Part shown: one piece after another, positions 19,388 to 50,672 of the stretch
Numbering within the stretch: position 1 is the first letter of the stretch
Layout: each line of letters opens with the position of its first letter
Origin: Loigolactobacillus coryniformis subsp. coryniformis KCTC 3167 = DSM 20001
GTDB lineage: Bacteria > Bacillota > Bacilli > Lactobacillales > Lactobacillaceae
Direction of reading: 5' to 3'
Assembly (NCBI RefSeq): GCF_002706425.1
Contig: NZ_CP017713.1
Location: 1,054,001 to 1,118,000, forward strand
DNA: 64,000 bases
Position numbers and translations under genes: made by a program
Notes under the pieces: generated by a model
Databases searched by the model: none
Told to the model about the DNA's origin: nothing
Seen by the model: only the letters and a program-made list of their open reading frames with translations

Positions 19388-20878
19388 TTGGCAGATAAAA
19401 AAATTCGTGTTCGTTATGCCCCAAGCCCAACCGGCCATTTGCATATCGGTAACGCACGGACGGCATTGTTCAACTATCTTTTTGCGCGGCATAATAAAGG
19501 TGAATTTGTGATTCGGATCGAAGACACCGATACCAAACGTAACGTTGAAGGTGGCGAAGAAAGCCAATTAACCATGCTTAAATGGTTAGGGATGGATTGG
19601 GATGAAGGTCCCGATAAGCCTGGTGAAGTGGGCCCATATCGGCAGTCAGAACGTGGCGCAATTTATGGTCCATTGATTCAACAATTAGTTGATCAGGGTT
19701 TGGCCTATGAGTCTTACATTACGGAAGACGAATTAATGGCACAACGGGAAGCACAAAAAGCACGCCACGAGATGCCTCATTATGAAGATGAATTTGCTGG
19801 TTTAAACGCTGAAGAAAAAGCAGCTAAGATCGCCGATGCTAAAGCAAAGGGAATCAAGCCGGTCATTCGTTTCCACGTCCCAGTGCATAAGAAATATGAG
19901 TTTAATGATTTAGTTAAGGGTCATATTGAATTTGATTCTGATTCAATCGGTGGCGACTTTGTAATCATGAAACGTGACGGTATGCCAACGTATAATTTTG
20001 CCGTTGTGGTTGATGATCATATGATGAAAATCACGCACGTTTTACGTGGGGATGATCATATTGCCAACACACCAAAACAATTGATGATCTATGAAGCTTT
20101 CGGCTGGGAACCACCTGTTTTTGGTCATATGACGTTGATCATCAATACACAAACGGGTAAGAAGTTATCGAAGCGTGACGAAAATACGCTACAATTCATC
20201 GAACAATATCGTGAATTAGGCTACTTACCAGAAGGTATGTTCAATTTCATTACCTTGTTAGGCTGGTCACCGGTTGGTGAAGATGAAATCTTCACACGGA
20301 AGCAGTTGATCAAAATATTTGATCCTAAACGCTTAAGCAAGTCACCAGCTAAGTTTGATGCTAAGAAGTTGGAATGGGTCAATAATCAGTACATGAAACA
20401 AAGCGACAGTAGTAAAGTGACTGATATGGGCTTATATCAATTGATCAAAGCAGGTCGTTTGCCAGAAGATCCTGATAATAAGACGATCGAATGGGCACGT
20501 GCGCTGATCAGTTTGTATCATGATCAAATGAGTTACGCTGCCCAAGTGGTTGAAGAGTCAGCTGTCTTCTTTACTGAACCACCTAAGTTAGATGAAGCGG
20601 CGCTGGCTGAATTAGCGGTTGATACAGCACCACTAGTTTTGAATAAGTTTGCTGAATTGATCAAGCAAGTTAAGATTTTTGATGCAGTCGAGATCAATAA
20701 TGCGATTCAACAAGTTCGTGCCATCGTTGGGGTTAAGGGTCGTAAATTATACATGCCAATTCGGATCGGCACAACGCGGGCAACGCATGGTCCAGCAATT
20801 GCTGAATCAATTGAGTTACTTGGCCGTGAGAAGACGATGCATCATTTGGAAGTCACTTTAGCCGAATTAAATCATTAA
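19388..20878 (+). CDS. gltX: Glutamyl-tRNA synthetase
   Basis: Class I synthetase charging tRNA-Glu (and often tRNA-Gln where GatCAB exists). The HIGH motif is in [13 protein letters not shown] near the N-terminus, KMSKS appears as KKLSKRDEN, and the anticodon-binding alpha-helical cage fills the C-terminus. I place the start at the TTG at 19388, giving [14 protein letters not shown] as in relatives, with GAGGCGG upstream; a TTG at 19367 with AAAAAGG upstream is an alternative adding seven residues. Length about 496 aa. Confidence 0.94.
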
Positions 20879-20884
20879 TACGAA

Positions 20885-21110
20885 GATAGGAATAAGTAGA
20901 TCGATCAGTTGAAACAGGGAGCGCTTGGTGAGTGAAAAAGCGTCAGTAGATCAATTGAAATGCCTCCTTGAGTGCGCATACGAAATCAAGTAGTGTGCGC
21001 CGGATATCATTCACGTTAATGAATGAAAAGGAAGTTCTCTAGCTTCGAATAAAAGTGGAACCACGTGTAAAACGTCTTTTGATCATTCTCTGATCAAGGG
21101 GCGTTTTTCG
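20885..21110 (+). promoter_or_regulatory. T-box leader, tRNA-Cys responsive, controlling cysS
   Basis: The T-box sequence AAAAGTGGAACCACG at 21051-21065 has TGGA, which pairs with a tRNA 3' end of UCCA, as expected for tRNA-Cys (discriminator U). A candidate specifier codon TGC is at 20961-20963, after the AGTAGATC region of stem I. The competing terminator is ACGTCTTTTGATCA / TGATCAAGGGGCGT followed by T residues (21070-21108). Uncharged tRNA-Cys would stabilise the antiterminator and allow cysS transcription. Confidence 0.88.
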
Positions 21111-25921: not shown

Positions 25922-26030
25922 ATTAAGTGAGGTAGAGCCATGTTTCAACTTGGCAATTTTTGCTGTAGTTGAATGGACATCGTCACGAACATCAAAAGTT
26001 TATTAGTGGTTTTTACTAATAAATTAACCA
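25922..26030 (+). repeat. Family A two-hairpin repeat, copB unit 1
   Basis: Starts ATTAAGTGAGGTAGAG. Hairpin 1 is TTTCAACTTGGCA / TGCTGTAGTTGAA, followed by the linker ATGGACATCGTCACGAACAT and hairpin 2 TTTATTAGT / ACTAATAAA. It is in the same orientation as copB. Confidence 0.85.
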
Positions 26031-26156
26031 ATTAAGTGAGATAGAGCCATATTTCAACTTGGCAATCTTTTGCCGTAGTTGAATGGACATCGACATGAAC
26101 ATCAAAAGTTTATTAGTGGTTTTTACTAATAAACTAACCTATTAAGTGAGATAGAG
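26031..26156 (+). repeat. Family A two-hairpin repeat, copB unit 2 plus terminal half-repeat
   Basis: A tandem copy of the preceding unit with scattered substitutions (ATA for ATG before hairpin 1; GACATG for GTCACG in the linker). The closing half-repeat ATTAAGTGAGATAGAGG (26141-26157) contains the GAGG that serves as the copB ribosome site. Confidence 0.85.
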
Positions 26157-32788: not shown

Positions 32789-33122
32789 TTTAATTTTTAT
32801 CATGGCAACTGGCAGTATTATTATGTTAAAGCAATTAGCGACTGCTGCAGAAAATCGGGAACAGTATATATTGTTGACCAAGTTAGGCGTCAGTCTAAAG
32901 GCGATTCGGCGCTCAATTTATGTTCAAACAGGGATGACGTTCTTACTGCCAATTATATTAGGTATGATCAACGCGTACTTTGCGTTACACATTTTAAATG
33001 TGTGGCTTAATCAACTTGATTTAACCTTTGCCTACTTGATTGGGCTATTTTATTTGTTGGTTTATAGTATTTACTGCTGGCTCACTGCGCGCATCTATTA
33101 TCGCTTGATTAGACCAAAATAA
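32789..33122 (+). pseudogene. 3' fragment of a BceB-type antimicrobial-peptide ABC transporter permease
   Basis: About 110 codons remain, encoding ATGSIIMLKQLATAAENREQY, a further segment KLGVSLKAIRRSIY and two closing membrane helices. This matches the C-terminal end of FtsX-domain BceB permeases (ATGSI.YFKQL.EAEED.ERY and KIGVS.KEI). The full protein would be roughly 640 residues; the rest, and any BceA ATPase, is absent. The IS30 right end joins in frame, so an ATG at 32721 inside the IS gives a 133-codon fusion frame that is probably meaningless. A terminator follows. Confidence 0.8.
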
Positions 33123-33163
33123 AAGGCGTTGTAACATAAATAACTTATGCCCAACGCCTTCTT
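33123..33163 (+). terminator. Hairpin after the permease fragment
   Basis: AAGGCGTTG pairs with CAACGCCTT; a few T residues follow. Probably the terminator of the lost permease operon. Confidence 0.65.
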
Positions 33164-33218
33164 TGCACTTCCGAACAATATCGTTAAAACGTATGCCATA
33201 AGGCAACTTTTTCCGCTT

Positions 33219-33275
33219 GCCCTGTTTCAACTTGGCGGTTTTCGCCTGAGTTGAATGGACAACGTCCAGAATATT
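33219..33275 (+). repeat. Degenerate family A repeat
   Basis: GCCCTGTTTCAACTTGGCG / CGCCTGAGTTGAA forms hairpin 1, followed by the linker ATGGACAACGTCC. Hairpin 2 is largely lost (AATATTTAAGC). There is no gene in the sense orientation directly downstream; the next gene runs the other way. Confidence 0.65.
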
Positions 33276-33402
33276 TAAGCTTTTCGGTACGAAAATCAAC
33301 CACTACGGTGGCGTAGTAGTTACGATCGTCAAATGATCCACTATGTGAATTATTCGCCGCTCTAGGCTAATGCTCAAAAGCTGATCGCCTTATGTCACAA
33401 AT

Positions 33403-43037: not shown

Positions 43038-43130
43038 TGCCGCAAGGCCTTAAGGCAATGGTGTGCTTACGAATCGTGTCAGGTTCGGAAGAAAGCAGCA
43101 CTAAGTAGGATACGTCATGTGCCTTTTGTT
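43038..43130 (+). ncRNA. ffs: Signal recognition particle RNA, small bacterial type
   Basis: The conserved SRP tip is read directly: GTCAGGTTCGGAAGAAAGCA followed by GCAC, corresponding to the GGAA tetraloop and the asymmetric loop bound by Ffh. Flanking arms GGCA.TGGTG and CATGTGCC close the helix. Position between tadA and dnaX agrees. There is no Alu domain, so it is the short form. The ends are approximate (promoter -10 box and the terminal T tract). Confidence 0.9.
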
Positions 43131-43255
43131 TATTTGAATTGAGACAGCTCTTAGTTGACCATAGACTAAGAGCTTTTATTTTGAGCTTTATGGTTATTGA
43201 TCGTTAAATGGGTGCTGGATTTGGCGATTTGATCAATGAACCATTTTAATTGGGA

Positions 43256-43371: not shown

Positions 43372-43476
43372 GCCATGATTCTTGCGGTACGGTTTTTTGC
43401 CACAAGAATGGTTATCGTCCGTAACATCGAAGTTTATTAGCGTATTTGGCTAATAAACTACCTTAATTGTGAAGTA
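43372..43476 (+). repeat. Family A two-hairpin repeat before dnaX
   Basis: GCCATGATTCTTGCGG.. / GCCACAAGAAT hairpin, linker ATGGTTATCGTCCGTAACAT, hairpin TTTATTAGC / GCTAATAAA, then TTAATTGTGAAGTAGA, directly followed by the AAAGGA ribosome site of dnaX. Single unit, no leading half-repeat; the family B tail takes its place. Confidence 0.8.
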
Positions 43477-43486
43477 GAAAGGAAGC

Positions 43487-49112: not shown

Positions 49113-49218
49113 TTAATTGTGAAGTAGAGCCATGTTTCTTGCGGCACGCTTTTCGCCACAAGAATGGCCATCGTCCGTAACATCAAAATTTATTAGCGTA
49201 CTTGGCTAGTAAATGTCC
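49113..49218 (+). repeat. Family A two-hairpin repeat, ricT unit 1
   Basis: TTAATTGTGAAGTAGAG, hairpin 1 TTTCTTGCGGC / GCCACAAGAA, linker ATGGCCATCGTCCGTAACAT, hairpin 2 TTTATTAGC.. / GGCTAGTAAA. It lies between holB and ricT. Confidence 0.85.
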
Positions 49219-49342
49219 TTAATTGTGAAGTAGAGCCATGTTTCTTGCGGCACGCTTTTCGCCACAAGAATGGCCATCGTCCGTAACATCAAAATTTATT
49301 AGCGCACTTGGCTAATAAATATCCTTAATTGTGAAGTAGAAA
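49219..49342 (+). repeat. Family A two-hairpin repeat, ricT unit 2 plus terminal half-repeat
   Basis: Almost identical tandem copy of unit 1 at exactly 106 bp. The closing half-repeat TTAATTGTGAAGTAGA at 49325-49340 runs into AAGG, the ricT ribosome site. Near identity suggests a recent tandem duplication. Confidence 0.85.
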
Positions 49343-49357: not shown

Positions 49358-50149
49358 ATGGAAGTTATGGAAATTCGGTTTCAAAAGGCAGGCCAGTCGC
49401 ATTGGGCGGTCAATCAGTTGCAGGTGCAAGCTGGCAGCCAGATCGTGGTTAAGTTCAACCATTGTCAAGATCTGGCACAAGTGGTGCGCGCACAAGAGCT
49501 AACGACGGATGAAGTTGCTTTAGATGAGATCGTGGTTGAGCGAACTGCTGTGGAAGCTGATTTGACGCACGCGGTCAGCAATCAGGCGGACGCACAGGCT
49601 GCCTTACACCAAGCGAGACAAATGGTGCGGCAACACCATTTACGAATGAAATTGACCATCGCACGCTATACATTGGATCGACATAAGTTGATTTTCTATT
49701 TCACAGCTGATGGTCGCGTGGACTTCCGTGAATTGGTCCGTGATTTAGCTAGTGTGTTCAAAACACGAATCGAGTTGCGTCAAATTGGTGTTCGTGATGA
49801 GGCAAAGTTGTTGGGCGGTATCGGGCCGTGCGGTCGTCAATTATGCTGTTCCACCTTTTTGGGTGAATTTGTGCCAGTATCGATCAAAATGGCCAAAAAT
49901 CAAAATTTATCGTTGAATCCAACTAAAATATCTGGGCTTTGCGGTCGCTTGATGTGCTGTCTACAATTTGAAGATGACATGTATGAAGAAGCAAAAGCGG
50001 CGCTACCTGATTATGGAGAACGCGTACAAACCGTTGATGGACCTGGTAAAGTTGTTGGCATGAACTTATTATCGCACGTACTACGTGTACGTTTAGACGG
50101 CCATGAAGTGCCGGTAGACTACGATTTAGAAGAAATCAAGCAGCATTAA
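49358..50149 (+). CDS. ricT: PSP1-domain protein RicT (YaaT)
   Basis: Cysteine-rich cytoplasmic protein of 263 aa. In Bacillus, RicT with RicA/RicF forms an iron-sulphur complex that stimulates RNase Y and acts in competence, biofilm and sporulation. The cysteine motifs GPCGRQLCCSTFL and GLCGRLMCCLQFE are complete. The start at 49358 follows AAAGGTAGGGG; an ATG three codons later is possible. Confidence 0.9.
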   Translation: MEVMEIRFQKAGQSHWAVNQLQVQAGSQIVVKFNHCQDLAQVVRAQELTTDEVALDEIVVERTAVEADLTHAVSNQADAQAALHQARQMVRQHHLRMKLTIARYTLDRHKLIFYFTADGRVDFRELVRDLASVFKTRIELRQIGVRDEAKLLGGIGPCGRQLCCSTFLGEFVPVSIKMAKNQNLSLNPTKISGLCGRLMCCLQFEDDMYEEAKAALPDYGERVQTVDGPGKVVGMNLLSHVLRVRLDGHEVPVDYDLEEIKQH

Positions 50150-50175: not shown

Positions 50176-50302
50176 ATTAAGTGAGATAGAGCCCTGTTTC
50201 TTGCGGCACGAATTTTGCCACAAGAATGGTCATCGCCACGAACATCAAAAGTTTATTAGCGTACTTGGCTAAGCAACTAGCACTAATTAAGTGAGATAGA
50301 GG
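50176..50302 (+). repeat. Family A two-hairpin repeat before yabA
   Basis: The unit ATTAAGTGAGATAGAG, hairpin TTTCTTGCGGCA / TGCCACAAGAA, linker ATGGTCATCGCCACGAACAT and hairpin TTTATTAGC / GGCTAAGCAA spans 50176-50285. It is followed by the half-repeat ATTAAGTGAGATAGAGGTG, whose GAGGTG is the yabA ribosome site. TAAGCAACTA occurs both before and at the end of the unit, a sign of tandem duplication. Confidence 0.82.
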
Positions 50303-50312
50303 TGAACAAAAA

Positions 50313-50672
50313 GTGGAGAAACGGGAGCTGTACGATAGTTTCGTACAACTAGAGGCCGATATGAAGCGTATGCTGGCCCGTATTGATGAAATGCAGACAG
50401 ATATGACACAGATCTTAGAGCGCAATGCAGAACTGGAAATCGAAAACCAACATTTACGCGAACATTTGCAGGAAATTCAGTCTGAGGAAGTTGAGCACCA
50501 ACAAGCAACAAAGCAACACGAGCAAACGCCACAATTGTCGAAATCGCGTGCTAACTTGGAAAAATTGTATGAAGAAGGGTTCCATGTTTGCTACCTAATG
50601 TATGGTTCACGGCGCATCGATGACGAGCCGTGTGCTTTTTGCTTGGACGTTATCTATGGTGAACGCCATTGA
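50313..50672 (+). CDS. yabA: Replication initiation control protein YabA
   Basis: Binds DnaA and the DnaN clamp to restrain re-initiation. The N-terminal coiled coil (residues about 5-55, LYDSFVQLEADMKRMLARIDEM...) mediates tetramers, and the C-terminal zinc module has H-C near FHVCYLMYG and CAFC. It is 119 aa with a GTG start preceded by GAGGTG from the family A half-repeat. Confidence 0.92.
   Translation: MEKRELYDSFVQLEADMKRMLARIDEMQTDMTQILERNAELEIENQHLREHLQEIQSEEVEHQQATKQHEQTPQLSKSRANLEKLYEEGFHVCYLMYGSRRIDDEPCAFCLDVIYGERH

Follow-up and report, generated by a model that had tools for sequence, protein, structure and literature searches.

Short two-hairpin repeats directly 5' of Shine-Dalgarno sequences in Loigolactobacillus coryniformis, probably a family of non-autonomous mobile elements

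REP/BIME elements carry a GTAG tetranucleotide, and the right end of IS200/IS605 elements combines a guide, a hairpin and a cleavage end, in elements that leave no target duplication and show a strand bias. No small bacterial repeat is known to us that is placed directly at Shine-Dalgarno (SD) sequences in sense orientation. The BOX elements of Streptococcus pneumoniae are built of separate boxA, boxB and boxC modules and are overrepresented between convergent genes; terminal inverted repeats are mentioned, and the authors judge the elements parasitic (PMC3049150). Here we describe a repeat family, family A, from the genome of L. coryniformis subsp. coryniformis KCTC 3167 = DSM 20001. The literature searched, with few subscription papers within reach, gave no description of it. 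A preliminary description of the same DNA had recognised no RNA class that matches, and Rfam agrees: there was no match at E up to 1 in a 1.5-kb stretch, eight loci searched at E up to 0.5 gave two matches elsewhere and none on the units, and none fell on the units at the gathering score across the window, that is, the whole 64,000-nt stretch analysed (positions 1,054,001 to 1,118,000 of contig NZ_CP017713.1). The window also holds a T-box leader at 20874-21082 and a bacterial small SRP RNA at 43047-43133. With moderate confidence, we favour the reading that family A is a new family of short, gene-less, non-autonomous mobile elements that fold on one strand specifically and strongly prefer SD sites.

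In window positions, with all units and genes on the + strand, the 230-bp stretch 49113-49342 consists of a left half-repeat, TTAATTGTGAAGTAGA, which forms the upstream border of the ricT array (49113..49128), and two tandem units of ~106 nt. The first (49129..49234) runs through hairpin 1, linker, hairpin 2 and a right end that reads GTGAAGTAG plus A; the second (49235..49340), whose right end adjoins the SD (AAGG), is the top covariance-model match of the genome at 118.1 bits. Immediately 3' of the array lies ricT (49358..50149; NCBIfam NF041131, 291.7 bits, above cut-off). A single unit (50191..50300) with the right end GTGAGATAG plus A stands 5' of yabA (50313..50672; best match E 4.3e-27, under the curated cut-off), and another (43372..43478), the left border of which resembles the end of a family-B repeat, stands 5' of dnaX. 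Two more precede the copper P-type ATPase gene, copB, at 25937..26045, with a hairpin 1 of the TTCAACT type, and at 26046..26155. These are the six units named in the preliminary description (two at copB, one at dnaX, two at ricT, one at yabA), all of which we found. A seventh (~33219..33317) lies inside a family-B repeat, with CCGCTT on its left and TAGTTACG after its right end. Family B itself (33114-33397) is a MITE-like repeat with inverted ends that in relatives read approximately GTGTTTGAAAAAGC... and ...GCTTTTTCAAACAC, and family-A units are often found in it, at a fixed point between CGCTT and AGC.

Each unit extends from GCC to GTAGN over ~100-110 nt and holds hairpin 1 at its left end, a linker, and hairpin 2 closed by a bulged stem. 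The layout first proposed stands as regards the two hairpins and the linker; the "half-repeats" are not unpaired borders, as had been thought, but the 3' strand of this closing stem, in which the linker is paired with the right end of its own unit. Hairpin 1 occurs in at least two swapped forms across copies and hairpin 2 in many, and the two exchanges pointed out earlier, TTCTTG/CAAGAA against TTCAACT/AGTTGAA in hairpin 1 and C-G to T-A at the closing pair of hairpin 2, are real. The earlier claim that the fold is selected is borne out by covariation above shuffled controls in both sets of copies. Within this genome (33 copies), 98.8% of cells are paired (93.1% in shuffles) and 40 cells are changed on both sides (10.6 shuffled), neither value being reached in any of 500 shuffles. 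In other genomes (150 best of 157 matches, 144 distinct), 95.9% are paired vs 76.5% shuffled, 23 of 26 pairs have double-sided changes, and the covariation score is 0.436, compared with 0.131 after shuffling and no more than 0.076 when the partners are slid; both alignments lean on our own structure and so favour it, a bias that the slid and shuffled controls remove incompletely, and the left-flank pair counts in this second test mix left and right partners. In the two hairpins, G.T mismatches outnumber A.C by 154 to 32 (with the 110 best rows of A4 used), and in the stem between linker and right end by 38 to 18; the annotated strand is therefore the one that folds.

The two covariance models used below, R1 and R2, were built with the pairing on the left side (linker and upstream half-repeat) that RNAalifold gave. 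In tandem arrays, the linker matches the half-repeat before it and the one after it to the same extent (94.9% each). The pairing with the upstream half-repeat was rejected because copies without a left half-repeat favour the right end. With the right end located by TAG alone, 254 of 299 rows were kept, 32 being dropped for want of a TAG in range and 13 for want of the hairpin-1 base; the left and right counts that follow come from copies whose left flank is not a half-repeat. The inner position 6, which is unconstrained, pairs with the linker on the right in 23/26 copies of this genome and 57/61 of relatives, against 6/26 and 3/61 on the left, and is decisive for right-end pairing. Position 2 favours the right more weakly (37/41 and 54/69, against 20/41 and 50/69 on the left). 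For position 1 the counts are 39/41 and 62/69 on the right and 15/41 and 9/69 on the left, with a right side that hardly varies. Position 10, the junction nucleotide, fits the linker on both sides (right 32/40 and 52/70; left 24/40 and 60/70) because the same nucleotide tends to flank the unit at either end; in relatives the left flank does even better here than the right, a count that goes against the right end. When all rows are taken together, the bases at position 6 and opposite it in the linker are G-C in 131, A-T in 58 and A-A in 25 of 225; the A-A rows make up a subtype with C-G as the adjacent pair.

Across the 2.95-Mb genome (one contig), BLAST gave 60 matches and the covariance model at least 136 at E up to 0.1, a number that may be a lower bound, as the search scored 150 of 2105 first-look candidates. 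Two of the 136 are antisense shadows of an array; these were dropped and the rest merged into 79 runs. Past the right end of 64 of the 79 comes a sense-strand start codon that opens a frame of 60 codons or more, and in 45 of the 64 the distance is 10-15 nt. At least one of these frames is probably spurious (L087, with 66 codons, behind a copy in another repeat). A start lies within 3-30 nt in 63/79 runs, compared with 7/79 in an antisense control taken at the left end over a wider span. The genome search that had been proposed for the family thus finds copies genome-wide, mostly on the sense strand 5' of genes and not in random orientation.

Beyond this genome, a pattern scan found the repeat in seven Loigolactobacillus species, three Pediococcus species and Lapidilactobacillus bayanensis among the matches listed, which also include four in unrelated bacteria that we take as chance; L119 and L136 were judged chance matches from their sequence, L169 and L178 were left out, and the covariance model was run on 114 of 119 pattern-scan loci. 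Under strict filters, model R1 has matches in at least 8 of 60 genomes, namely this one and seven others of Loigolactobacillus, and model R2 in at least 19 of 397 genomes of the family, in at least 7 of 40 genera. The plasmid and phage collections gave no match. Placement differs among relatives, in a sample that is biased by the scan pattern: runs are mostly before starts in zhaoyuanensis (10/15) and Lapidilactobacillus (6/7), and those of backii, iwatensis, rennini and Pediococcus are for the most part embedded in another repeat and have T after GTAG. The SD preference thus characterises this genome and part of its relatives but does not extend to the repeat family as a whole.

Mobility is suggested by empty orthologous sites together with nesting. 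The ricT and yabA sites are filled in 1 of 8 species, the unit being absent from seven sister species both by eye and by the model. At six further sites (L028, L076, L066, L075, L077, L086) one or two relatives lack the unit, with no model match there. At three others (L012 and second sites in L066 and L075) one species has a decayed unit where another has an intact one, and three sites are common to this genome and one relative each (L019, L022 and L077, the last with another relative). In Pediococcus parvulus, one copy of a tandem repeat contains a unit and the neighbouring copy does not. Units also occur within hairpin 1 of other units, in the same orientation as these, as well as inside other repeats. 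Because the empty sites come from other species at ~67-88% DNA identity, breakpoints are blurred; where an empty state is visible, at most 1 nucleotide is common to both sides; it may be a target duplication, a recombination core or part of the element. At SD sites, the junction nucleotide pairs with the linker, and the left and right junction nucleotides are the same in 18 of 24 sites (2 of 5000 shuffles reach this), the rule that selected the 24 by score having been set after 35 sites had been seen. The idea that insertion splits an SD found no support, since joined flanks were no better than shuffled ones in the 35 sites (750 of 2000 reach) or in the 24 (1331 of 5000).

Other repeats are associated with family A. 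One (TGACCGAAACG...CTCCTTAG) sits in the hairpin-1 loop of family-A units at L025 1725-1900, L048 and L202 4664-4813, and has a two-hairpin look similar to that of family A and a TTAG end. A third (...GTCGATTGGACT...AAGTCCAAGTCGCA) lies in the linker of units at L066 1557-1780, L075 and L011.

As mobile elements, the units would act as a folded single strand and insert without a recognisable target duplication of more than 1 nucleotide, here mostly in sense orientation directly 5' of SD sequences, with a second subtype going inside other repeats. The right end, present as a direct repeat, would allow tandem growth, homogenisation and loss, and insertion inside an operon would be tolerated because SD and start codon remain intact behind a self-contained fold. 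Movement may pass through a single-stranded form, RNA or DNA, the SD preference would come from targeting and not from selection, and a foreign enzyme presumably moves or moved the elements. A more specific proposal, which we regard as possible though rather doubtful, is that of an element class that targets SD sites via its own fold, with the linker as a guide of one to a few bases; a change in these would redirect the element to other targets. At the junction, the opposing linker base would then pair with the first nucleotide after GTAG, which is mostly A or G at SD sites and T in the other subtype, and which tends to recur to the left of the insertion. A standard folded module would in this manner be placed before the SDs of dozens of unrelated genes, and translation would survive.

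The placement could also be read as function, and a cis-acting mRNA element was indeed the second idea of the preliminary description: as leaders, the units would control how the downstream gene is translated or how stable its message is, and in arrays, where each linker may pair with either half-repeat and the last half-repeat is next to the SD, a shift could expose or mask the SD. The sense orientation, the near-constant distance to the start codon, the strand-specific fold and the equal fit of both half-repeats in arrays are all in keeping with this. In addition, 51 of the 64 sites have, within 400 nt upstream, the end of an open frame of 90 codons or more on the same strand, and are therefore probably transcribed. 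Nevertheless, we find such a role unlikely, for the sites turn over between sister species and the downstream proteins are unrelated in function. From 63 of these, 20 were submitted for family matching, with gene names from NCBIfam; each of them falls into a named family, and 15 score above a curated cut-off (RicT, PrfA, TruA, PEP synthase regulator, RbfA, MurF, Era, MutS, HslU, DnaX, thioredoxin reductase, TypA, RsfS, copper ATPase and Ffh). The 20 have no function in common, though several act in translation. Furthermore, copies that lie within other repeats and have no gene start found after them retain this fold, an indication that it is the element itself that benefits from it. A riboswitch or regulon leader was rejected given the ricT and yabA sites filled in 1/8 species and the varied families of the 20 downstream proteins. 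A leader peptide from the ATG in GCCATG was likewise rejected, since by eye its frame stops early in a TTCAACT-type unit and the ATG is missing in GCCAGT, GCCATA and GCCCTG copies.

If the elements are mobile, as we favour, the comparison of copies bears on when they moved. Among the 104 best units, median identity is 0.946 within arrays (61 pairs) and 0.643 between loci (5269 pairs; best 0.92). With copies alike within arrays and distant between loci, arrays grow and homogenise locally, and long-range movement would not be very recent. Another account is that the units are remnants of an older, now immobile element, spread by local tandem duplication and gene transfer and lost from other positions. 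It is in line with the lack of close copies between loci and with the decayed units and lone right ends that exist. It is also in line with three other genera (L225, L227, L229) that have one copy each, in a stretch like locus L088 of this genome. The gene start behind the unit is the same in two of these genera and belongs to a different gene in the third, and the three copies look like passengers of a transferred gene cluster. We consider this account improbable, as loss alone leaves unexplained why most survivors in this genome are SD-adjacent rather than elsewhere in leaders, and the ricT and yabA units look like gains in one lineage.

That the units are BIME/REP elements moved by a REP-associated (Y1) transposase, the first idea of the preliminary description, is very improbable: palindromes, GTAG at one end, many intergenic copies and no clear target duplication would fit, but the Y1 family PF01797 has no match in this genome and is matched in 2/8 genomes of the genus (and in 5/14 control genomes), GTAG is on the 3' side, and the units are arrayed head-to-tail where BIMEs alternate. 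All 66 exact matches of the left-half pattern in this genome lie inside unit matches, and among them no larger element with an intact left half was found; as the elements also contain no gene, a partner enzyme would be needed. An IS110-type transposase and a reverse transcriptase were rejected as movers, since each is present in 4/8 genomes of the genus and is therefore not common to it. This genome has 20 reverse-transcriptase matches (e.g., at genome positions 436177-436800 and 497381-498004), some of which are pieces of one gene, and they are probably group II introns. Two of the matches lie within ~600 nt 5' of family-A arrays, and an Rfam group II intron is present at L010 1453-1523. By analogy of anatomy with the IS200/IS605 right end, single-strand transposition would be the most likely route.

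A family that stands before genes like prfA, era, typA, rbfA, ffh, mutS and dnaX would mean either that insertion has a specificity of a new sort or that translation leaders of one type are spread through the genome. In both cases it would offer natural pairs of leaders with and without the insert, from which the effect of structure just 5' of an SD could be measured directly.

Among known systems, elements derived from IS200/IS605 may work in a similar way: they have hairpin ends, a guide 5' of the end hairpin that pairs with the end 3' of the hairpin, no target duplication and a strand bias, and in family A the hairpins and the pairing of the linker with the right end are seen; they differ in that here there is no Y1 match in 6/8 genomes and no fixed target tetranucleotide was seen. 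REP/BIME elements (PMC2817692) are likewise abundant intergenic palindromes. They too have a GTAG tetranucleotide, whereas the unit here is longer and two-hairpinned, has GTAG at its 3' end, forms direct arrays and comes with no Y1 match. MITEs (PMC10969869), and with them ERIC-like RU elements, are similarly short, intergenic, mobile and without a transposase of their own, but the ends here, GCCATG... and ...GTAGN, are not inverted repeats and there is no clear target duplication; a MITE with inverted ends was rejected for the same reason, GCC and GTAGN not being complementary. BOX elements (PMC3049150) share with family A the small interspersed repeats, the tandem modules, the predicted RNA fold and the nesting in other repeats; in contrast, the units here are alike, their ends are not inverted repeats, and most lie directly 5' of an SD on the sense strand. 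BOX elements are the nearest in kind to family A, and differ from it in modules, ends and placement.
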